In this document: piece by piece, positions 4,457 to 22,176 of the stretch
How the letters are laid out: each line of letters starts with the position of its first letter
How positions within the stretch are numbered: the stretch's first letter is position 1
Origin: a virus
Reading direction: 5' to 3' (one strand)
IMG/VR virus record: IMGVR_UViG_3300029893_000025
Coordinates: 1-40,243 of that record
Length of the DNA stretch: 40,243 nt
The notes under the pieces: generated by a model
The model's database searches: none
Told to the model about the DNA's origin: nothing
The model's input: only the letters and a program-made list of their open reading frames with translations
Position numbers and translations under genes: made by a program

Positions 4457-4605
4457 ATCTTCCTCGTCCTCGCCTGTATCTCATAGCGCCCGTTGGACAG
4501 CCAGCCGGCCTTAACGCGGAAGTCCCCCCACGGGTAGAGCGTAAGCCCGAGCAGTCGTTGGACCACTATCAAAAAGGGCATGGCGAAAAGGAGGGTTAAT
4601 ACCAT
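4453..4605 (-). CDS. Small membrane protein, 50 aa
   Basis: The ATG at 4605 overlaps the last codons and stop of the tail-fibre gene by 10 nt, and its TGA overlaps the next ATG. The N-terminal 23 residues are hydrophobic (MVLTLLFAMPFLIVVQRLLG) and the rest is polar (GDFRVKAGWLSNGRYEIQ). A single membrane span is expected. A second ATG lies at 4581. It belongs to the chain of overlapping lysis-region genes; the precise role is unknown. Confidence 0.55.
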   Translation of the reverse strand: MVLTLLFAMPFLIVVQRLLGLTLYPWGDFRVKAGWLSNGRYEIQARTRKI

Positions 4606-7076
4606 ATTGTGACCACTCCGTTACCGCCGGCCCCGCCGTTTGAATCCCCTGCGGTTCTTGACCCGCCGCCGCCGCCGCCGCCAAAAATGCCCGCTTCTCC
4701 TGCGGCGTTATATACCCCACGCCCGCCGCGTCCCACTCCACGCCCGGAAGCACCACCGACTGCGCCAGGGGCATATCCATTAGACACTAAGGCTATTTGA
4801 CCCGAGGCCCCGTAATAGGATTCGCTTACACTTCCCGAGCAAGCACCCCCTAGCCCCGGCGTTGACGGGGCATTGTCGGCGTAGTAAGTCGCACCGCCGC
4901 CGCCTCCGGCGATAATAGAGTAAAAAGTGGTATTTCCTCCGAGGGACCCGGAGCCTAGCACCCCTACTCCACCGACGCCCCCGGCTCCGATTGAAAAAGA
5001 AACCGAGCCTCCGGGGGTTGTCGTTGCTATAAATACGCAAGTGGCTCCACCGCCGCCACCGGACCCTGCGATGTAGTAAAACCCCTGCGAAGCCGCACCG
5101 CCGCCACCCCCGGCGGTTATGACGGCCTTAATTTTTGTAACCCCCGACGGTACGGTCCAAGTATTGGCCCCCGACGATGTAAAGGTCACAAAGTTCTGAA
5201 ACCCCGCACCCGTCACGCTCCCCGTGAAAGTGTTAGCTCCGGTGAAGGTGTTATCCCCTCCGATAAGCAACGACGACGAGGATATGGCTACCGTCCCGAC
5301 ATGGCCGTATTTAATCATGTAGGCCACGGCCACGTTCTTGGGGCGGGTTTCGGTGGAGATACGAGGCGTGCCGTTGGTCCCGTCGTTTTTGCCCACAGAA
5401 GATTTTCCGGCATAGGCGCTATACGGAGCTGAGGCAAACTGGCCTGCATTTCCGGCGGGCTCGTCGGCTACTTCTCCGTATCTCGCCCCGAAATTAGAAA
5501 CAACGGCTGTATAATGAATATGTCCCTGTAGCGTGTCTGTCTGTGTAGAGCCCACGACCCGGTTGACGTCGGGGTCGCTCCCGTTAAGGTTCCCTAAAGC
5601 GCCCCGTGCGAACATTCCCCGGAAGTCCGGCAGTTGGAACACGGCGGGCGACCCCGTTACCGTGTAGGTGGAATACCTATGTCCCGTCACGGCGAACAAC
5701 TGCGAGTAGGTCGTAGTGGAAACATAGGACCCGTCGCAGTATAGGTAGCCGTCCGGGGCCGTCGTCGTGGAATACTGAATTATGGAGCCTATCGGGAGGC
5801 CGTCTATAACCGCCGTGCTATCTACTACTCCGCCACCTCCGCCATTGAGCGCATAGGTCGCCGTCGCCACCCATAGCGGATAATAGCCCGTAGCCGTGGA
5901 CTGGATAACGCCCGTCAGGTTGGAGCCGTCGCCGTAGAAGGCGGAGGCGGTTATAGAGGAGGTAAAAACCGCTCCCCCGTCTACATTGACCTTGTGAGTG
6001 TTTGACGCCCCTCCGCCGACCAAGACTTTGCTCGCAGATAGGGAGGCCAAATACGTATCGCGCCAAGTCAAAAGAGAGCCGCTTGTCCCGCCGACCTGTA
6101 AGTCCCCGCTTTGGATAATCAAAGCCCCCGTCATGGTGTCGCCGGTTTTGAGGACGTGATTAGCCGTCACCGTGGAGAGGTCCACCGAGCCCGTAGGGAC
6201 CGTACCCACCAACTCCCCTGCGGGCAATGATGTAAGCCCCGCGCCGGAGCCGTAGAACCCCGCGCCTACGGTCACGCTGGACGAGAATACCCCGCCGCCG
6301 CTTACATCAAGGGTGTGGGTCGGCGCTGTTATTTTGCCCAGCGAAAGCGCGTGGCCTATTCTGTTGTGTCCGTGTTCTGTGGGATAGGCGCTCAGTAGTA
6401 TGCGCGCCGCGGGATTCCAGTCGTAAAGCGTCAGGGCCGCGCCGCCTATTCCGGTCTGCCCTGTGGTCAAATCGTACCTCTGCGTTGAGTCTATGTACCC
6501 ATAGACGTGTCGCGTATTCGAGCCGCTGTTAAGGGTCAGATTTCCCGTCATCGTGTCCCCGGCGCGATTCACCTTGGCCGCTTCTATGGCGCCAGTGGAT
6601 AATTCTAGGTCCGCTATAGCCGCCGCGTTGGTCCCGGTGCTTACCGCGATGGCCGCGTCGGCTATCTGCCTATCGCTTACCTCGGTGGCTAAATCTTGGG
6701 TCAGGACTCCAGTGCTCACCGCAACGGCCTCTATACGCGCCCCCGTAGTCGCTATGGCGGTGTCGTACTTAGTGATGGTAATAGCGTCGTACACTCCAAC
6801 TTGCACTGCGGCCGGGTATACCGAGTTAACCGCCACGGATGAGGCGACCACGGTAGAGCCGAGAGCGCCATAGATAGTCCCGGTGGAGCGGATGTCTCCA
6901 GCCACGTCAAGGCGGTAGGCGGGGGAGGCCGTTCCAATGCCCACTCTAACGTCCCCGGTGCTGATATAGATAGTGTTGCCGGAGGCCGCCACGTTTTCCA
7001 TTACGGCGCGGCGAGTCTGGGCGTCCGCGAGGGCCGGGGCAAGCAGAAGCGCTATGGCTAATTTTATCATTTTCAT
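4596..7076 (-). CDS. Tail fibre / receptor-binding protein with signal peptide, collar domain and Gly-rich tip, 826 aa
   Basis: Domains in order. A Sec-type signal peptide (MKMIKLAIALLLAPALADAQ) with an ADA cleavage site. Repeats of the VGIGTASPAYRLDVAG type with GDTMTG modules (about residues 45-420), common in fibre shafts. A phage tail collar domain (about 426-520, with DGYLYCDGS and FQLPDFRGMFARG). A glycine-rich C-terminus (about 655-826) with runs of GGGGG, like the distal adhesin loops of T-even tail tips. The first ATG (7076) abuts the -10 box of the promoter at 7077-7105. The predicted transcription start falls on the second ATG (7070, MIKLAIALLL), so the real product probably lacks two residues and is leaderless. 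A signal peptide is unusual for a virion protein. Receptor binding is inferred. Confidence 0.85.
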   Translation of the reverse strand: MKMIKLAIALLLAPALADAQTRRAVMENVAASGNTIYISTGDVRVGIGTASPAYRLDVAGDIRSTGTIYGALGSTVVASSVAVNSVYPAAVQVGVYDAITITKYDTAIATTGARIEAVAVSTGVLTQDLATEVSDRQIADAAIAVSTGTNAAAIADLELSTGAIEAAKVNRAGDTMTGNLTLNSGSNTRHVYGYIDSTQRYDLTTGQTGIGGAALTLYDWNPAARILLSAYPTEHGHNRIGHALSLGKITAPTHTLDVSGGGVFSSSVTVGAGFYGSGAGLTSLPAGELVGTVPTGSVDLSTVTANHVLKTGDTMTGALIIQSGDLQVGGTSGSLLTWRDTYLASLSASKVLVGGGASNTHKVNVDGGAVFTSSITASAFYGDGSNLTGVIQSTATGYYPLWVATATYALNGGGGGVVDSTAVIDGLPIGSIIQYSTTTAPDGYLYCDGSYVSTTTYSQLFAVTGHRYSTYTVTGSPAVFQLPDFRGMFARGALGNLNGSDPDVNRVVGSTQTDTLQGHIHYTAVVSNFGARYGEVADEPAGNAGQFASAPYSAYAGKSSVGKNDGTNGTPRISTETRPKNVAVAYMIKYGHVGTVAISSSSLLIGGDNTFTGANTFTGSVTGAGFQNFVTFTSSGANTWTVPSGVTKIKAVITAGGGGGAASQGFYYIAGSGGGGGATCVFIATTTPGGSVSFSIGAGGVGGVGVLGSGSLGGNTTFYSIIAGGGGGATYYADNAPSTPGLGGACSGSVSESYYGASGQIALVSNGYAPGAVGGASGRGVGRGGRGVYNAAGEAGIFGGGGGGGSRTAGDSNGGAGGNGVVTIWY

Positions 7077-7105
7077 AGTATAGCAAATTATCTGTTATTT
7101 TTCAA
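7077..7105 (-). promoter_or_regulatory. Promoter of the tail-fibre gene with TAACAGATA motif in the spacer
   Basis: Reading the minus strand: TTGAAA, 17 nt, then TGC-TATACT (extended -10). The spacer holds TAACAGATA (7089-7097), which also occurs three times at 21.0-21.5 kb. The predicted +1 (7070) is the A of the second ATG of the gene. Confidence 0.75.
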
Positions 7106-7494
7106 GCGGGAGCCGTGGTGACAGCCCCGTCGTCATCCACCCCCAATTCCCACGCCGTGCCCAAAGAGTCTACCAATATTATTGAGCGAGAGAAGGTCAT
7201 AAACGAGTATTCGTTTGACACGGGCGCAGTCGTGGGAACCCCGTCCGAATCCACCCCTATGGCGAAAGTGCGGCCGTCGGGGGAGATGAGTACGCAGGAG
7301 TAGGGTACCGCGGTGGTGGTGAGGGCCCCGGTGTTGTCAATGCCAAGGATATATCTGCTGTTGTTGGGCGAGAGAAGCCCTATCCCAGCCGACACCATGC
7401 GCCGGATAAGGCCCGGCGGGAGCCTTTTTGCGTCTGGATGGGACCCCGTATGTGTGTGGTTCTTGAAAATGGTGAACAACTGGTTGACGTCCAT
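7102..7494 (-). CDS. Structural protein with three short repeats, 130 aa
   Basis: The ATG at 7494 overlaps the TAA of the nozzle gene (TAATG) and follows GGAGG at 5 nt, so this start is preferred to the ATG at 7533 inside the upstream gene. After an N-terminal HTHTGSH segment the protein has three repeats of about 34 residues ending GIDNTGALTTTAV, GVDSDGVPTTAPV and GVDDDGAVTTAPA. Such beta-rich repeats suggest a small trimeric or propeller-like tail component. Position between nozzle and fibre supports a tail role. No named family is recognised. Confidence 0.65.
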   Translation of the reverse strand: MDVNQLFTIFKNHTHTGSHPDAKRLPPGLIRRMVSAGIGLLSPNNSRYILGIDNTGALTTTAVPYSCVLISPDGRTFAIGVDSDGVPTTAPVSNEYSFMTFSRSIILVDSLGTAWELGVDDDGAVTTAPA

Positions 7495-9896
7495 TACGTC
7501 CTCCGTTGCCACATCATGTAATCCATGGTCCAACCCGTAAGGTTGGTTATGCCCTCGCTTATTTTGGCCTTAAACTCCACGGATATATACCGGGCCCTTT
7601 TTGAGAAGGCAGAGGGGAATAAGACCCTCTGATTGAGCAGAAGGTCGGACGTGACGCTGGTCTGGGTTGTAAAATCGTCTGTGTATCTCAGAGTCAGGGT
7701 GGCCGCTAGGCCTTGCCCCCCTATGATGTACATATCGCCCCCTACAACGGCGGAGCCGCCCCAATACCTGTCGGTTATGATTTCGGTCTTAGCGGTCCAA
7801 GAGTTGCCCGCAGGGTCATATAAGTACGAGGTCCGGGTGGCAGACGCGTCCCAAAACCCACCCGTCACGTATATATCAGAACCTATGGCTCCGGCAAAAT
7901 GCTCCATCTTGGCCGCGGGCATGTCGGCTATTGCGCTCCAAGAGTCGGCCCCTATGTCGTATTTGTAGCCCCCCGCGCCCAGAGGGGACCCCCCTATCAT
8001 GTACAGCGCGCCGCCAGACTCAGTGAGGGTGCCGAGGATGTTGCCCGCCCCCGGGTGAGAGGTCAAAGAGGCCCAAGCATCGGACAGCACGTCATACTCC
8101 TCTAGCGCGCTGACCTTTAATAGCGCCGTGGTCTGGCCGCCCACTGCGTATATTTTGCCGTTGTAGTATTCCGCCATCAGGAAGTATCTGGCAGTGGGCA
8201 TGGGGGCCATGGTCGTCCACGTGTCTGTTGATGGGGTGTACCTGTAGACCGTATCTCGCGCGGCCCCACCATCGGTGGAGCCGCCGATAATATATATATG
8301 GGTCCCGTCCGTCGCAGAGGCCCCGAAGGCTATAGGTACAGGCATGGCGGTCTTGGTGGCCCAAGAATCGGTAGAGGGGTCGTACTCCTCCACCACATCC
8401 AAATATCCATCACCGGAGGCGTCGTATCCGCCTATAGCGTATATTTTCCCGCCCACCGTCTCTACGTGGACTCCGCGCCGCGGATAAACCATGCTCTCAA
8501 GCACGGCATAGGAGTCTGTAGCCGACTGGTATTTGTGGTTGCGATTGGTGGCGGTTGACGAGGACGCTATTGCACGGCCATACGCCTGATAGTATCGGGG
8601 TGTTTTGAGGCGCATGGGGTCCCCGAGATTGTAGAACTTAGTCTGATAGACCCAGTCCACCAGATTGCCGTCGTCGCCTACGACGCCCTCTGCTGTGGTC
8701 ACGTCGTGCTTATAAACATACCCGTCTATGTTAACAGAAATTATAGCCTTAGCCCCGCTGGCCTCATGATACTGGGCCATGTGCCGAGGCGTGTAATTTG
8801 CTCCCGACCCCATGTAAAACAGATACTCGCTAATTGCGGGGCGTCCGCTCTCGTCCTTGTTGAGGAGGTCGTGGACGAAAACGCGGTCATGCTCTCCGTC
8901 CCCGTCTGAGTCCATTGAAAACCACATCTGGTTTTTCTTAAAATTGTACGCGGCCGACGGGCGGTTGGCCAACGTGGGGTCTATTTTGGTTATGTCGGCC
9001 TTGTAGTTGTAGGTCACATAGTCGGACACGAATTGGGGCCTCAGGTCTGAGCCTATATACGAGGCGCCGTTGTGCCCCAGAAACCACAACTCATTGCCAG
9101 CGCTGGCGAGGCACCCGTCGGATATGAGGCCCTCGTTTTGGGCCAACTGCGTCTGAGAAAAGTCGGCGGTGCTGGTGCCAGAAATGGCGTAGATTGAGTT
9201 ACGCTTGAAGACGACAAGGTGGCCATAGGCCAGACCTATGCCTGTTATTTCGTCTCCATCGGTCAGGCCGCCTATTATGATGTAGTTGTTGCCCGGCCAA
9301 GAATCCGGGTTGGACGATTCGCAGAAGTACAGTTTGTTAGTCCCGTCTCCAGCGGCGAACACGTAATTGTTCCACACTACCAAAAATCGGCACCCCTTGG
9401 GCGGGCTCCCGCCAAGTGGGGCCCCAGTGAAGTTAGCCCCATCGTAGGAAATCTTAAAGGGGTCGTTGGTGCCGTCAAAACCGATGACCATGTCGTTATA
9501 AAAGTCCATGTTCACGCGATTATCAGCCGGGGCAGAGCGGGCGGGCAGGGTCCCGCTGGCGTCAACCCACAGGTCCCCGACCCCACCAGCGTGGGCAAAT
9601 AGCCCGGCGTCGGGGGCTACTATCACGGCCCACCCCGCAGAGAACTTGGCGTGGAAAAGGCCGTGAGTGGCCACGGTTAGATTGTATGGGTCTAAAAAAA
9701 GTTTCTTGGTGCCATCTCTGGGAGTTAGGGCCCCAGAGGCCGCGTTGAAAATAACGTTACGGCAGACCATGGCCTGATTGGTTTTGAGTTCAGGAGGGGA
9801 TATGCGGGTGTTCCAACCCCCGCCTAGGTCGGTGTGGAGAGGGGTGGACAGGAGAAATTTATTCCTGTAATTGCTTACGACCTCGTCCGCTTTCAT
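7494..9896 (-). CDS. Tail nozzle / tubular-B-like protein with inserted Kelch propeller, 800 aa
   Basis: The gene directly follows the adaptor-like gene, the usual order of T7 gp11-gp12 type tail genes. Residues 1-440 are beta-rich and resemble nozzle/stabilisation proteins of podoviruses (LGGGWNTRISPPELKTNQA, then a WNNYVFAAGDGTNKLYF region). About residues 455-735 hold six Kelch blades, each with an IYxIGG-like core (IYAIGG, IYIIGG, IYAVGG, LYMIGG, IYVTGG, MYIIGG) and a DxWxxxxxMP-type strand. The last 50 residues (RARYISVEFKAKISEGITNL) return to the nozzle-like fold, so the propeller looks inserted. Kelch propellers bind proteins or glycans, so a role in receptor contact is a reasonable inference. 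Confidence 0.75.
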   Translation of the reverse strand: MKADEVVSNYRNKFLLSTPLHTDLGGGWNTRISPPELKTNQAMVCRNVIFNAASGALTPRDGTKKLFLDPYNLTVATHGLFHAKFSAGWAVIVAPDAGLFAHAGGVGDLWVDASGTLPARSAPADNRVNMDFYNDMVIGFDGTNDPFKISYDGANFTGAPLGGSPPKGCRFLVVWNNYVFAAGDGTNKLYFCESSNPDSWPGNNYIIIGGLTDGDEITGIGLAYGHLVVFKRNSIYAISGTSTADFSQTQLAQNEGLISDGCLASAGNELWFLGHNGASYIGSDLRPQFVSDYVTYNYKADITKIDPTLANRPSAAYNFKKNQMWFSMDSDGDGEHDRVFVHDLLNKDESGRPAISEYLFYMGSGANYTPRHMAQYHEASGAKAIISVNIDGYVYKHDVTTAEGVVGDDGNLVDWVYQTKFYNLGDPMRLKTPRYYQAYGRAIASSSTATNRNHKYQSATDSYAVLESMVYPRRGVHVETVGGKIYAIGGYDASGDGYLDVVEEYDPSTDSWATKTAMPVPIAFGASATDGTHIYIIGGSTDGGAARDTVYRYTPSTDTWTTMAPMPTARYFLMAEYYNGKIYAVGGQTTALLKVSALEEYDVLSDAWASLTSHPGAGNILGTLTESGGALYMIGGSPLGAGGYKYDIGADSWSAIADMPAAKMEHFAGAIGSDIYVTGGFWDASATRTSYLYDPAGNSWTAKTEIITDRYWGGSAVVGGDMYIIGGQGLAATLTLRYTDDFTTQTSVTSDLLLNQRVLFPSAFSKRARYISVEFKAKISEGITNLTGWTMDYMMWQRRT

Positions 9897-13288: not shown

Positions 13289-14089
13289 TTACTCTGCCCT
13301 AAGTTTGGCCCAAGCCGCGTCCAGCCGCTCCTCATCAGAGAGTTTCCTCTCCTTTGAAATCGGGGCGGGTATTCCGCCAGTCGGGAGGGGCTGTTGTATC
13401 TTCTCCACTTTGGCCTTTATGCCGGAAGCCTCGGAGACCTCTTTCTTCGCCAGTTTGGCGCCGAAATTCTCCTGCAACCGCTTAATAGCCTCACCGATGA
13501 CTCCCGGGTCGCGGTCAATGAACCGCTCATGGAGTTCCTCGTTGGTGGATATCACAGACGCCACAAGGTCCAGAAAACCCTTCTTCTGGCCTTCGTCCTT
13601 GACGCCGATGGTGTCGCAATACTTCGCGACCTCATCCTCCATCTTGGACACGTAGCGCTGATTAGCCTTCTCCTCTCTGGCCCTATACGCTTCTATGACG
13701 CTGAGATGTTCGTCGGAGAACTTGTCAAGTTTCCCCAGACCGGGAACAACCTGTTTCAGGTAATCCACGAACTTCTTATCGTCGTCGGATAGGGCTGGCG
13801 CGGCCTGTTCCTCTTTAGGAGCAGGCTTTATTTTGGCGCTTAGGTCCTCGTATTTACCGAGTGACTTATAGCGCTCATACTCCTTTTTCATGTCGGACAT
13901 TTCCTTGGTCCGCATGTGGAGTATTTTGTTTACTTCTTCTTCCGTATACGTCTTGCCCCCGGCAGTAACGCCGCCGTCGGTCGTCGGCTCGGGCTTGGAC
14001 TCAGGTACGGAAACCTGTTCCTCAGACCCGGGCTGGCTTTCGGTGGAAGGCGTCTCCACCTGTTCTTTTACGCCCTCTGCTTCTTCCAT
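13289..14089 (-). CDS. Capsid scaffolding protein, 266 aa
   Basis: A highly charged, Glu/Lys-rich, largely helical protein with an acidic low-complexity N-terminus (residues 1-45, Glu/Pro/Ser) and coiled-coil stretches (MKKEYERYKSLGKYEDLSAK, EAYRAREEKANQRYVSKM). The basic-acidic C-terminal helix ends DEERLDAAWAKLRAE, the part that usually binds the coat protein. It lies between portal and capsid, and its ATG shares a base with the portal stop. Composition and position are typical for scaffolds. No protease motif is seen. Confidence 0.75.
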   Translation of the reverse strand: MEEAEGVKEQVETPSTESQPGSEEQVSVPESKPEPTTDGGVTAGGKTYTEEEVNKILHMRTKEMSDMKKEYERYKSLGKYEDLSAKIKPAPKEEQAAPALSDDDKKFVDYLKQVVPGLGKLDKFSDEHLSVIEAYRAREEKANQRYVSKMEDEVAKYCDTIGVKDEGQKKGFLDLVASVISTNEELHERFIDRDPGVIGEAIKRLQENFGAKLAKKEVSEASGIKAKVEKIQQPLPTGGIPAPISKERKLSDEERLDAAWAKLRAE

Positions 14090-16131
14090 TATGCCTCCAT
14101 TTGAGGGGCGGCTCCCTGAGACATCTGCATGTTGCCCATCTGCTGGGCGAACATCTGCTTATGCTCAATTATGTGCCGCTCCCACAAAATTCTCATCTCG
14201 TCCTGCAACTGCCAGAAATCCTCCGACTTGGCGAATTTCATGTGCATGGAGAGGTGGACATGGTGGTTGTCTATATCTGCTCGGAGTCTGGTTATGCCAG
14301 ACTCAAGAAATGTTTTTTCCTCCCTGATGGCGTCGTTAACGTCGTCCTCAAGGGTCTTGGAGAAATCTTTGGCATGAAAACTATCCATCAGTTTCATGCG
14401 CGTCGCGATATCGCTGGGGTCTATAAGGCCGCGCTCCAGCAGTTGGCCCGCTATAAGTTGCTTATGGGCCTCTGACCTCGGGGAAGACGAGCCGGGTTCT
14501 ACGCGTATATCGTATGAACCGCGGAGGTCGGCGCGGTCAAACTGCTCCTGCTTCCACTTGCCGCTCGGGTCTTTGAAAACGCGGGTCCTTTTTTCGGTGG
14601 CGTATTCGCGCCACACATCAAGGAACATGCGTGCAACCTTCTTTTTGGAGTTCTCGTAGTTGCGAATCATCCGGGTAAATCGGCCGATGGCACGCTCTTT
14701 CAGGAGTTCAAGGCCGCCGAGGGTGGGAACGTTCGGCGGAACCTCGCCCTTAAGGATGTCGTAGGTGGACGCTAGTTCCTCAAAATCCCGGTCTATCTTC
14801 TCAAGCCACCGGAAAACGGACTGGGTTAGTTCCACGCCACCGAGGCGCTCGGGTTTCGCGTTGGCGGTGTTTGAGTCGTTGTACCTGACTATCTCGCCCG
14901 GCTCTCCAGAAATGTTCTCTATTCCGCAGGACTCAGGCAGTAGCCATACAGGGTTGGAGGTCCGGTGCAAAGCCAACTGGAGGAACGCCTCAAGTTTATT
15001 GCGCTGAATCTGTTTGTGTACGAGGTCATCAACGATTGACTTCGCAAAAAGGCGCCGCGGGGTGGCCTGCTGGAAATAGTGGACTATTGGTATAAACGGG
15101 GCCCCGTCGGAACGGTGATACTCAAGGGGGCCGCCAGACAGTTCCACGTCGTTACAGACAAACCCGTGGTACCCCTCAGGCATAGTGGCGGAGGCTGGGA
15201 TGAAAACCTCCCAGATAGTAACCTGTTCGTCTTTGTTCTGGCCGCCGTACTCGGAACTGTTGCCGAACCCAGAGTCTCCGCTGTTGGTCACATAAGCGAG
15301 GCTCTGGTAGTAATACTGGCCAAGATTATTAGTGTTGCCCTGCGGCTTTATGTCTTTGGCCTTATCTCCCCATCTCTGCTTCACGATGGTGATAGGATAG
15401 GTCCGGCACCGCATAACATAGGGTTGCTTATCAAAGTCCTCAACGGAGAGGTCGCAGTAAACCTCAAAGGGCGGAAGCACCTCGGCCTTCACCCGGCCGC
15501 GGGGTTTCGCCACCTTTGTCCCGGTGTCCTGAATATCCTGAGACCCACATTGGGGGCAGATTCCCTCACCGAATTCATGCGCCTCGCCGCTAAAGCCGCA
15601 AGCCGGGCAGGCCCACATAGGCATTTCAACGGAGCCGTACTTCATGTCGTTGTCGTAGTAGACGTAAACGAACGCATTTCCGGTGAGTATAAACCAGATA
15701 TTGAGTTTGTCCTCAAGTTCCTGTATCCCGCTCTCGTCCTCGCAGATGTCGTAAACGGCGTTGGCCACGTCTGCGGTGGCGACGTCGTCGGGAGAGTTTG
15801 TGGAGGGGGAGAACACCATGGTGGGGCGGACCTGAGAGAGGACGGACGCGATGGTGTCCGACGTGGACGCGAAACGATTTGTGATGGGGGTCGGCATCCA
15901 CTCGGGGAGATTCGGCTTGACCCATTTGCGACTCTTGTTGTCGTATTTTATCCACTGCTTCCCGATGTAGAATAGAGTGTTCCGGTACCAGACGCGCTCT
16001 ATGCCGTAGCGGAGATATTGTACCTCTCCGACACGCTGTTTAACAAAAGCAACGGCGTCAAAGTCTGACGCCGATACTTCTTTTTCGCCGCTATTTACCT
16101 CGGCAGAGGTGTCTTTTACAGGAAAATCCAT
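14089..16131 (-). CDS. Portal protein with zinc-ribbon insertion, 680 aa
   Basis: The length and order (terminase, then portal, scaffold, capsid) mark the portal ring protein. Features include a YRNTLFYIGKQWI helix near residue 50, KLNIWFILTGNAFVYVYYD (about 142-160), and a long C-terminal helical region (DILKGEVPPNVPTLGGLELL). A zinc-ribbon-like insertion has CPAC at 175-178 and CPQC at 192-195. This is not part of the basic portal fold and probably sits in the wing. The portal ring of 12 subunits forms the DNA channel and binds terminase and adaptor. It starts 3 nt after the stop of the 93-aa gene. Confidence 0.85.
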   Translation of the reverse strand: MDFPVKDTSAEVNSGEKEVSASDFDAVAFVKQRVGEVQYLRYGIERVWYRNTLFYIGKQWIKYDNKSRKWVKPNLPEWMPTPITNRFASTSDTIASVLSQVRPTMVFSPSTNSPDDVATADVANAVYDICEDESGIQELEDKLNIWFILTGNAFVYVYYDNDMKYGSVEMPMWACPACGFSGEAHEFGEGICPQCGSQDIQDTGTKVAKPRGRVKAEVLPPFEVYCDLSVEDFDKQPYVMRCRTYPITIVKQRWGDKAKDIKPQGNTNNLGQYYYQSLAYVTNSGDSGFGNSSEYGGQNKDEQVTIWEVFIPASATMPEGYHGFVCNDVELSGGPLEYHRSDGAPFIPIVHYFQQATPRRLFAKSIVDDLVHKQIQRNKLEAFLQLALHRTSNPVWLLPESCGIENISGEPGEIVRYNDSNTANAKPERLGGVELTQSVFRWLEKIDRDFEELASTYDILKGEVPPNVPTLGGLELLKERAIGRFTRMIRNYENSKKKVARMFLDVWREYATEKRTRVFKDPSGKWKQEQFDRADLRGSYDIRVEPGSSSPRSEAHKQLIAGQLLERGLIDPSDIATRMKLMDSFHAKDFSKTLEDDVNDAIREEKTFLESGITRLRADIDNHHVHLSMHMKFAKSEDFWQLQDEMRILWERHIIEHKQMFAQQMGNMQMSQGAAPQMEA

Positions 16132-20041: not shown

Positions 20042-20390
20042 TACGTCTCCTGTCAGTGACCATGTGCATTATGTCCGACACGTTCGCGTATGACCTCTGC
20101 TTTCTCATGAGCATACCCCAAGCCCCGGAAGCGCACTGCGCCGTCCACTCCATGTCCTCGGTGATGTACTCGCGCACCGCGTCCATAGCGTCCATGAAGT
20201 GCTCGTCTTTACAGTACCTGCGGTACTCCTCAAGAGGCATTTCGCACCGCTTGAGAGCCTGAACCCAACTCTTGGTCCTGATATACTCAAGCAGGAACAG
20301 CATTTTTCTCTCGCCGTGCTCTTTGAACTTTTCTTTGTACGGCTCAACCAGCCAGTCTCTCTGAGTCCGATTGTATTTATAGTCAACCAT
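19929..20390 (-). CDS. terS: Terminase small subunit (by position), 153 aa
   Basis: It lies directly upstream of and overlaps terL. It is a charged helical protein: N-terminal YKYNRTQRDWLVEPYKEKFKEHG, then a helix-turn-helix-like stretch TKSWVQALKRCEMPLEEYRRYCK that could bind the packaging site, and a C-terminal basic RRRNEFFRRRENARRERE segment. The transcription start predicted from the promoter at 20397-20425 is exactly the A of this ATG, so translation would be leaderless; no ribosome site exists upstream. The family cannot be confirmed by motif alone. Confidence 0.7.
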   Translation of the reverse strand: MVDYKYNRTQRDWLVEPYKEKFKEHGERKMLFLLEYIRTKSWVQALKRCEMPLEEYRRYCKDEHFMDAMDAVREYITEDMEWTAQCASGAWGMLMRKQRSYANVSDIMHMVTDRRRNEFFRRRENARRERELGKTGSVPHEESGEALPEITEE

Positions 20391-20396
20391 TTTTTT

Positions 20397-20425
20397 ATTA
20401 TATCATTTGGTGTTCGCCAAGTCAA
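20397..20425 (-). promoter_or_regulatory. Promoter of the terminase operon
   Basis: Minus strand: TTGACT, 17 nt, TGA-TATAAT (extended -10). Six A residues separate the -10 box from the ATG, placing +1 exactly on the first base of terS. It is back-to-back with the plus-strand promoter at 20446-20474, with 20 bp between the two -35 boxes. Confidence 0.9.
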
Positions 20426-20445: not shown

Positions 20446-20474
20446 TTGACACGGCGGTTTCTTTTTTGTATAAT
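20446..20474 (+). promoter_or_regulatory. Perfect consensus promoter of the large RNA
   Basis: TTGACA, 17 nt, TATAAT. Predicted +1 is G at 20481. No protein-coding gene starts within the next 500 nt; the transcript is the structured RNA region. Confidence 0.9.
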
Positions 20475-20480
20475 TTTCTT

Positions 20481-21006
20481 GGAAACTTTCGGAGCGCCAT
20501 TCCGATTGTTTCTCGCTCTCCCGACGTGATGACCGCAATGTGGCAAGCAGTCGGGGTAAAGAGCAAGGTGTGAGCCCGCACCTAATAATGGGCACAATTT
20601 TCTGCCGGGATGAAGCAACAGCCGCTTGCTGGTCTCATAAGCCAGTGCCGCAAGGCCAAGTAGGTGCAACTCCTGCCCCGCGCAACCACTTTGGTGTAGC
20701 GGCGGGGCGTGTGACCCGCGTCCAGCGGATGATAGAGATGTCTGGCCCCGCGACCCGGGTATAACCCAGACTGCCTGCTCATGGCCGAGCAAAGATACGC
20801 TGGCACAGAACAGAAACAGGTAGGTACGGCCTGAGAGGGTTAGACTCCCTCCTACACCGCAGAATCGGGTTGCGACTACACGCGGTAGTCCTCGGGGTTA
20901 TCCACGCGGCGGAGACGCTCCGCAGAAGCGAGAGTCCCCTCAAGCAACGGGCGAGGAAGCCGGGAACAGAGGCCAGGTCCGAATAGTGAAAACCTATTCA
21001 ACCCGA
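20481..21006 (+). ncRNA. Large structured non-coding RNA candidate, about 525 nt
   Basis: A perfect consensus promoter is followed by 525 nt without a credible coding frame but with many local stems. Examples are 6 bp at 20520-20525/20550-20555, 7 bp at 20675-20681/20702-20708, 6 bp at 20740-20745/20766-20771, a 5-bp stem with the 7-nt loop TTAGACT near 20836-20852 (a T-loop-like fold), 6 bp around 20875-20891 and 6 bp at the 3' end near 20981-20999. Long-range pairing TCTCGCT (about 20511) with AGCGAGA (about 20927) is possible. The 3' end is not defined; the AT-rich stretch after 21006 is a natural limit. Large ornate RNAs of this size in phages include GOLLD and ROOL. I cannot tell whether this belongs to either or is new. 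Confidence 0.7.
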
Positions 21007-21030
21007 CCATATATATAACAGATAAACGCG

Positions 21031-21153
21031 ATGAAACAGATAAAAGTCAGAAAAACGTGGGGTAATTTATCACCAATTACTCGCGTAGATAAAATCAAAA
21101 CAAGATATTCGCGGAAGATAAAACACAAAGGTCTGTATCTTCGCGAAGAATAG
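21031..21153 (+). CDS. Small basic protein, 40 aa
   Basis: The gene encodes a Lys/Arg-rich protein with a WGNLSPITRV motif and a YSRKIKHK end (MKQIKVRKTWGNLSPITRV...). Short proteins with this W-P-TR...YSRK-K-HK pattern recur in phages and plasmids as conserved hypotheticals, which supports a real gene. No strong ribosome site lies upstream; a weak promoter (GTGAAA, 18 nt, TATATA) would start close to the ATG, or it may be read from the upstream RNA transcript. The composition is AT-rich compared with the rest of the genome. A nucleic-acid binding role is plausible. Confidence 0.55.
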   Translation: MKQIKVRKTWGNLSPITRVDKIKTRYSRKIKHKGLYLREE

Positions 21154-21164
21154 CGCAAGTGGGA

Positions 21165-21207
21165 GAGCCCTATAAGATTTCCCCGAAGGGGAAATCTTAT
21201 AGGGCTC
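21165..21207 (-). terminator. Perfect 20-bp inverted repeat with UUCG loop on the minus strand
   Basis: A perfect stem of 20 bp (21165-21184 with 21188-21207) surrounds a 3-nt centre. On the minus strand the tip reads C-UUCG-G, the very stable RNA tetraloop, so the minus transcript is the likelier user. No U-run follows on either strand. It lies between the end of the 40-aa gene and the small RNA promoter at 21290 and may end both transcripts. Confidence 0.65.
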
Positions 21208-21283
21208 GTCTATCACATGCCTCACAGTCAGGCTTCCATGAGGCGTTCCCGGGATTCCCGGCTATTTCGCCACCTCGGGTAAC
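21165..21283 (-). ncRNA. Candidate small RNA, about 119 nt
   Basis: The promoter at 21290-21318 predicts a start at 21283. The transcript has a CCGGG/CCCGG hairpin, a GCCTCA/TGAGGC stem and ends in the 20-bp UUCG hairpin. The only open frame across it starts far upstream of the promoter. The position between the large RNA and the AT-rich origin candidate, with an operator-like palindrome in its promoter, suggests a regulatory RNA. Confidence 0.45.
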
Positions 21284-21289
21284 GCTATA

Positions 21290-21318
21290 TATATAACAGA
21301 TAAATATCTGTTTGTCAA
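21290..21318 (-). promoter_or_regulatory. Promoter with palindromic operator in the spacer
   Basis: Minus strand: TTGACA, 17 nt, TATATA. The spacer is almost filled by the inverted repeat ACAGATA-AA-TATCTGT (21297-21312), which overlaps the TAACAGATA motif. A repressor bound here would block the promoter. Confidence 0.7.
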
Positions 21319-21491
21319 GACCGAAACTCCCAATATTGCGTTTTAAGCCCTCTGACCCCCCGTTCCGCACCTTTCCCCACATTTCAACTAAAAACGCAAC
21401 CACGGGCCACCCAGACCCCTTCCCGCGCTTATTACAAACGACTTGTCAACCCAGTTTACAGCCAAGCATTGGCCTATATAAATAACAGATA

Positions 21492-21520
21492 TATATAAAG
21501 ACAGTGTATTTGTCTGTCAC
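21492..21520 (-). promoter_or_regulatory. Promoter-like element with inverted repeat
   Basis: Minus strand: GTGACA, 17 nt, TATATA. A GACAG...CTGTC inverted repeat (about 21500-21518) covers the spacer and -35 box, and TAACAGATA lies just downstream of the -10. No convincing gene starts in the first 100 nt. Confidence 0.5.
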
Positions 21521-21589
21521 ACACCCAACCCCGTAGGCCCTCTATATCCCCCTCTGCTCTACCCTACCTGAATCTAAAAAAAATTTCTG

Positions 21590-21930
21590 TGAGGATATAT
21601 ACTACCCGGGGTGCCTAGGGTCCCATCGCGGGGGGGTATACTCTATCTATACGCGTGTAAGAGTAGAGACTGTATCATGTCTAACTGTTATAGTTTATAG
21701 ATAGATACTATAGATTGTAGATAGATATATCTAAAACTACTCTTAGGTAAGTTATACTAAGATGGGCTCTTAGAGCATAGTATAGATTAGAGTAGTAGGG
21801 GAGTAGGGTATTCTTAGAGTAGAAGGAATAGGGGAGTAGTAGGGGAGTAAGGAGATAGATTAATATCTAGGGGAGTAAGGTAGAAAGAAACTACTATACT
21901 TGGGGAGTAATGAACTCTCTACAATAAGGT
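21590..21930. other. AT-rich block with five GGGGAGTA repeats: replication origin candidate
   Basis: There is no gene from 21208 to 22176. Within it, about 21640-21790 is strongly AT-rich with many short inverted repeats (for example TAAGAGTAG at 21658 and CTACTCTTA at 21738). It is followed by five copies of GGGGAGTA at 21798, 21831, 21842, 21870 and 21902, all in the same orientation. An AT-rich unwinding-like region next to ordered direct repeats is the usual layout of an origin. The contrast with the GC-rich genome is sharp. The segment 21930-22176 is GC-rich and shows nothing convincing. Confidence 0.45.
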
Positions 21931-22176
21931 ATCTGATGGGCCCGGCCCCAAAAAAATCCTTCCTGCGCCTTTCGGCGGGGGGGAATATGCGGGAATTGGT
22001 AGGGGGAATATGCGGGGGGGGTCCGGGTCCCCCCGGCCCTCCGGGCGCGCTCTTGTAGGGCGCGCCGGGGGCGGGGGTCCGGTCAGGCGTTAGGGTTTGC
22101 TGTCCCCCTTTGCCTTGCGGATGGCGGCTCGGGCGGCATCTATCGCCGTCGCAATTGGGGTTTTGTGTTCGCGTCC

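Follow-up and report, generated by a model that had tools for sequence, protein, structure and literature searches.

GOLLD and ROOL, two kinds of large phage RNA, are among the described systems closest to the locus analyzed here. Both are often found near tRNAs, tRNAs are sometimes present in the GOLLD linker, and a Met-tRNA lies upstream of the GOLLD RNA env-38 (PMC12286853). The locus resembles GOLLD in being large, of phage origin, and associated with a tRNA that lies inside or adjacent (PMC12286853), but many GOLLD members exceed 800 nt, compared with ~530 nt here, and the conserved 3' region of GOLLD was not seen. It resembles ROOL in phage origin and in size (the ROOL model has 574 positions), but that model had no match in the region. 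A different parallel is offered by the tRNA-like domain of tmRNA and the tRNA-like structures of plant viruses, in which, as in two units described below (TL2 and TL3), an acceptor helix and T arm are kept and the lower half is replaced. This comparison concerns how the molecules may work rather than their sequences.

The window, that is, the whole stretch of DNA analyzed, is a virus record of 40,243 bases belonging to a tailed phage with recognizable TerL, P22-type portal, and capsid proteins. The terminase large subunit TerL was assigned by Pfam/PHROGs. The terminase operon begins with an ORF (minus strand, start codon at 20390) that matched no family and is a small-subunit candidate by position only. 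Within 20390-20402 (minus strand), the -10 box TATAAT stops 6 nt short of the ATG of this ORF, so the operon mRNA may be leaderless. Elsewhere in the record, a structural-region protein (7494-9896, minus strand) carries Kelch repeats, which are unusual in phage, and the portal protein (14089-16131, minus strand) has a short, weak match to the anaerobic ribonucleotide reductase NrdD at residues 153-202.

A preliminary description of the region had reported a perfect promoter, paired with a divergent terminase promoter, upstream of a large non-coding RNA. Both promoters were confirmed (Table 1). Between about 20490 and 22000, all six frames lacked a protein-coding signal and the codon usage of the phage genes. 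The statement that the region holds no credible gene was thus correct for proteins and wrong for RNA genes, since a tRNA gene had been missed. With a promoter, no coding signal, and a fold of tRNA type on the strand expected to be transcribed, a structured non-coding transcript starting at 20481 is well supported at the sequence level. The proposal of late or packaging-linked expression had no other basis than the promoter region shared with the terminase genes. As host sigma-70 sites close to consensus, the two promoters would point, if to anything, to early or constitutive expression.

Table 1. Coordinates of features at the candidate RNA locus
Feature	Position	Strand	Basis or detail
Divergent terminase-operon promoter, TTGACT-17-TATAAT	20425-20397	-	11/12 match
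Sigma-70 consensus promoter, TTGACA-17-TATAAT	20446-20474	+	12/12 match, +1 near 20481
Leader, three hairpins (20481-20513, 20515-20564, 20566-20583)	20481-20602	+	Folding; no homologue found
TL1, phage tRNA(CAU) gene	20603-20688	+	Rfam hit, cloverleaf fold, layout scan, model R1
TL2, enlarged tRNA-like unit, 167 nt	20693-20859	+	Module scan; folds so alone
TL2 closing helix, GGUGUAG/CUACACC	20693-20699/20852-20858	+	7 bp
TL2 T-arm-like hairpin	20835-20851	+	Module scan
TL3, enlarged tRNA-like unit, 144 nt	20866-21009	+	Module scan; base-pair probabilities of the unit alone
TL3 closing helix, CGGGUUG/CAACCCG	20866-20872/20999-21005	+	7 bp
TL3 T-arm-like hairpin	20982-20998	+	Module scan
Perfect 20-bp hairpin, 3-nt loop	21165-21207		Inverted repeat; local folding z down to -8.5

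The best-defined part of the candidate RNA is TL1. When 20600-20690 was folded alone, the minimum-energy structure was a cloverleaf with a 7-bp acceptor stem (U1-A72, G2-C71, C3-G70, a bulged C, and then four pairs), a D arm with the stem AAGC/GCUU, and a 5-bp anticodon stem closing the 7-nt loop CUCAUAA, which contains U33 and the anticodon CAU. These are followed by a long, 10-nt variable arm (GCC-GCAA-GGC), a T arm with a 5-bp stem and 7-nt loop (GUAGG-UGCAACU-CCUGC), and A73 at 20685 with an encoded CCA. The Rfam tRNA model (RF00005), which gave the strongest of the weak Rfam hits, matched 20604-20684 with 20.4 bits (E 0.002), its only match in the record and below its gathering cut-off of 29 bits, and ARAGORN called no tRNA at TL1. 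In a scan for the cloverleaf layout, TL1 was the only match on both strands of the window, and none of 4000 shuffles of the region gave a match. The same scan of other phage DNA (1.585 million bases, both strands) returned three places, and ARAGORN calls none of them. The T loop also matched the tRNA-like model of tymoviruses, though weakly and under the cut-off (15.7 bits). TL1 is almost certainly a tRNA-type gene, on the strength of family homology and covariation.

The family was collected by searching viral contigs for the two TL1 loops and ACCA at tRNA-compatible spacing. This pattern occurred in 108 viral contigs, compared with ~3 expected by a rough estimate. The copies that were fetched resemble tRNA genes and occur singly or within tRNA arrays; ARAGORN reported a tRNA in 42 of 80 and missed the other 38. 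Forty copies aligned well (alignment A2, 97% paired cells). In 14 of the 16 helix pairs both partners had changed, a result that none of 500 shuffles gave. A covariance model built from aligned copies, with the window sequence left out (R1), found 20603-20688 with 50.5 bits and an E value of 3.9e-10 (next best place, 14.1 bits), a score that is inflated by the choice of the family through TL1's own loop letters. Features beyond the search pattern were concordant, namely the AG in the D loop, the GC..GC acceptor end, and the helices. Together with the CUCAUAA anticodon loop, the UGCAACU T loop, ACCA, and the covariation of the helices, these place TL1, as judged from sequence, in a widespread and under-detected type of phage tRNA(CAU). 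TL1 differs from other members in the bulged C of its acceptor stem and in its 10-nt variable arm. Only one natural member (L176), which also has a long variable arm, is of the same length (86 nt). TL1 also heads two enlarged units and does not lie in an ordinary tRNA array.

Several properties of the wider group were recorded. Among phage tRNA(CAU) genes with the UGCAACU T loop (alignment A2; L134-L213), most copies have AG at the D-loop elbow, where GG is usual, and most have a 1-72 mismatch, as in initiator tRNAs. Escherichia phage Av-05 encodes an unannotated tRNA(CAU) that ARAGORN missed (L133:1477-1551). Its anticodon arm is identical to that of TL1 over 19 nt, whereas its T loop is UUCGAUC instead of UGCAACU.

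The bacterial methionine identity set includes A73, G2-C71, C3-G70, U4-A69, A5-U68, and C32-A37 (PMC9976931). From the Met set, TL1 has A73, G2-C71, C3-G70, C32, U33, C34, A35, U36, and A37. It does not have U4-A69 and A5-U68, and it carries C4-G69, which is listed for Ile (PMC9976931). Because most Met identity nucleotides are present, methionine is the likelier identity, with a lysidine-type Ile tRNA second. TL1 could be charged by host MetRS or, if C34 were modified, with Ile instead.

TL2 and TL3 came from a scan for T arms, defined as 5 bp with a 7-nt loop, U54, and A58. Three hairpins in the region, and no more, fit this definition (20660, 20835, and 20982; shuffle mean, 0.06), and each directly abuts the 3' strand of a 7-bp helix, in one case with a bulge. 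Three of these T-arm/acceptor modules in ~530 nt compare with a shuffle mean of 0.012, and 0 of 3000 shuffles reached three; among 300 windows of the record, only this region did so. The three-module test was framed after the hairpins had been seen, and these figures are therefore optimistic. Phage DNA itself, with true tRNAs counted, has a background of ~0.07 modules per 530 nt (315 modules on the two strands, 2.3 million bases). A three-module cluster in another sequence (L104) was discarded as AT-rich sequence.

In both TL2 and TL3 a D-arm-like hairpin follows the acceptor strand by 1-3 nt, an arrangement found in ~6% of shuffles for each. Folded alone, the two units form their closing helices and T stems mostly with high probability. 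They share with tRNAs an acceptor helix that abuts a T arm with U54 and A58; they do not have a normal anticodon arm or a total length of 70-95 nt. The discriminator place is G in TL2. In TL3, A at 21006 is followed by CCA at 21007-21009, which is likely the 3' end of the mature RNA and lies near where the preliminary description had ended it. The spacers measure 4 nt (TL1/TL2) and 6 nt (TL2/TL3), and the three units tile 20603-21009 almost without remainder. No Rfam family matched 20686-21015, which covers TL2 and TL3, at E<=10. Introns inside the two units were considered and rejected, as the lower halves, judged by eye, do not rebuild a normal anticodon arm. Single-sequence statistics support TL2 and TL3 as tRNA-like modules, and we regard it as reasonably probable that they are such units.

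Our main reading, to which we assign a probability of roughly 0.6, is that the region is a promoter-driven small cluster of phage tRNA-type genes processed by host tRNA enzymes. We infer that transcription from the strong, host-type promoter would give a precursor that starts at 20481, extends to the CCA at 21009 or beyond, and contains the leader, the TL1 tRNA(CAU), and the enlarged TL2 and TL3; processing, charging, and all functions are likewise inferred. In TL2 and TL3, the "top half" of a tRNA would be retained as a 7-bp helix of acceptor type stacked on a T arm, and a long insert with its own structure would replace the D/anticodon half. RNase P, the 3' processing enzymes, and the CCA enzyme recognize a tRNA by its acceptor and T arm. 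Host RNase P and 3' processing enzymes could accordingly recognize these halves and separate three RNAs, two of which, TL1 and TL3, would already have their CCA encoded; the spacing of the units would resemble that of tRNA clusters. TL1 may sustain decoding during infection, for example when anticodon nucleases cut host tRNA(CAU). Phage tRNAs have been proposed to counter anticodon nucleases (PMC10264068), and since some VapC toxins cut initiator tRNA (cited in PMC10264068), this role would be a suitable one for a tRNA(CAU) of a phage. TL2 and TL3 could act as tRNA mimics on tRNA-binding proteins or could be scaffold parts.

The preliminary description had compared the region with GOLLD and ROOL and suggested a new class of large, ornate RNA. 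A single RNA of this style that stays uncut, contains a tRNA in the way some GOLLD linkers do, and serves as scaffold or oligomer would agree with the size and phage context, and the tRNA associations of GOLLD and ROOL cited above, including linker tRNAs and env-38 (PMC12286853), also favor it. The candidate region had no Rfam match at gathering scores, and the leader, TL2, and TL3 were placed in no Rfam family. The covariance-model check gave no match at E<=10 for the GOLLD conserved-3'-region model (RF02032), which in a control matched other genomes, below cut-off, or for ROOL (RF03087), a weaker negative given that the control genomes also had no match. Matches to COG2908, DUF1874, and mir-281 were far below cut-off. 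RNase P, group I/II introns, and tmRNA, considered by eye from motif fragments, were rejected for want of an Rfam match and for wrong motif order; neither ARAGORN nor Rfam reported a tmRNA.

Folding energies bear on the same alternative. On the plus strand, the candidate RNA is rich in A (24%) and poor in U (17%), and its folding energy is unexceptional (z = -1.6; 7 of 100 shuffles fold as well), with the opposite strand folding better (z = -2.9), so the folding is not exceptionally ornate. The compact stems named earlier are able to form, and the T-loop-like 5-bp stem among them coincides exactly with the TL2 T-arm hairpin. The 7-bp stem at 20675/20708, however, is an alternative pairing that would destroy the TL1 tRNA. 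In favor of one uncut RNA, the unconstrained minimum fold connects its parts through long-range helices. The full-transcript minimum-energy fold has -204 kcal/mol and lies 5.5 kcal/mol below the modular fold; the modular helices have low probability there, and those of TL2 and TL3 are absent from it. Near-complete tiling and the CCA ends suit processing better. A large new class is also made less credible because the region holds a tRNA(CAU), which makes up one sixth of it, and two parts that resemble enlarged tRNA-like units. As far as can be shown, the region is not a giant RNA of the GOLLD/ROOL kind, and an uncut RNA of that style appears unlikely.

No homologues of the leader, TL2, or TL3 were found in viral contigs, genome contigs, phages, or plasmids. 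Distant blastn searches of phage and plasmid collections gave only short, chance-level matches, and searches of viral and genome contigs with exact TL2 and TL3 patterns had no match. The 34 contigs returned by one further exact pattern were dismissed, being near the rough chance estimate and similar to the region only in the pattern itself and the bases next to it. Relatives of TerL were found at 80 loci (33-39% identity; another TerL search gave none) and relatives of the capsid protein at 10 loci (34-45%; none in genomes). Nothing of the RNA was detected in those of them that were searched, and in the complete genome MW202554 the terminase genes have no long gap beside them. Phages with 34-45% identical capsids and related portals (L002-L012) had no tblastn match to the window TerL in the stretches searched, which include one complete genome (L002); this suggests terminase swapping.

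That the rest of the region is conserved in no homologue would be expected of a decayed tRNA array, in which TL1 would be a tRNA that is drifting or has ceased to be one, and TL2 and TL3 would be functionless remnants or chance structures. The bulged acceptor stem and inserted variable arm of TL1 could likewise be signs of decay, and it is general knowledge that phage tRNAs are often gained and lost. The promoter, however, is intact (12/12), and TL2 and TL3 have perfect 7-bp closing helices and T stems that drift would break. The natural family member L176, equally long and with a long variable arm, further weakens this explanation, which we consider quite improbable.

Downstream of TL3, the perfect hairpin (Table 1) possibly ends the primary transcript, although it is not followed by a T run. 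The sequence ATAACAGATA occurs in exactly four copies, three in the non-coding stretch after the RNA (21015-21024, 21293-21302, and 21482-21491, plus strand) and the fourth a short distance upstream of ORF 4596-7076, which encodes the collar protein (7089-7098, minus strand). With up to one mismatch there are 8 matches compared with 1.0 expected (0 of 100 shuffles), and it may be a regulator or promoter site. At 21788-21915, repeated TAGGGGAGTA-like units that are 76-100% alike lie in a purine-rich non-coding tract. The three ATAACAGATA copies, the hairpin, a GC content down to 44% in 21001-22000, and the adjoining terminase genes could indicate a replication or packaging RNA that primes or opens a downstream origin or aids the terminase, like ColE1 RNA II or phi29 pRNA. 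Such a role would leave the tRNA(CAU) and the tRNA-like 3' end unexplained; the cumulative GC-skew minimum lies elsewhere, near 24-25 kb at the coding-direction switch, and terminase adjacency is one observation in one genome. We consider this highly improbable.

Beyond the processed tRNA-type cluster, a more specific proposal is that the locus represents a new kind of phage RNA, with three tandem tRNA-like units released by the tRNA-processing enzymes of the host: a genuine tRNA(CAU) and, behind it, two enlarged mimics that retain only the acceptor/T-arm half and act on tRNA-binding host or defense proteins. This proposal is tentative and on balance doubtful. As processed tRNA mimics, if that is what they are, TL2 and TL3 might act on defense enzymes that target tRNAs. 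A tRNA and enlarged tRNA-like units in one transcript would be a testable design that links tRNA genes with GOLLD-like large RNAs. Since a standard finder overlooks nearly half of the fetched copies of this phage tRNA type, counts of phage tRNAs may be too low.
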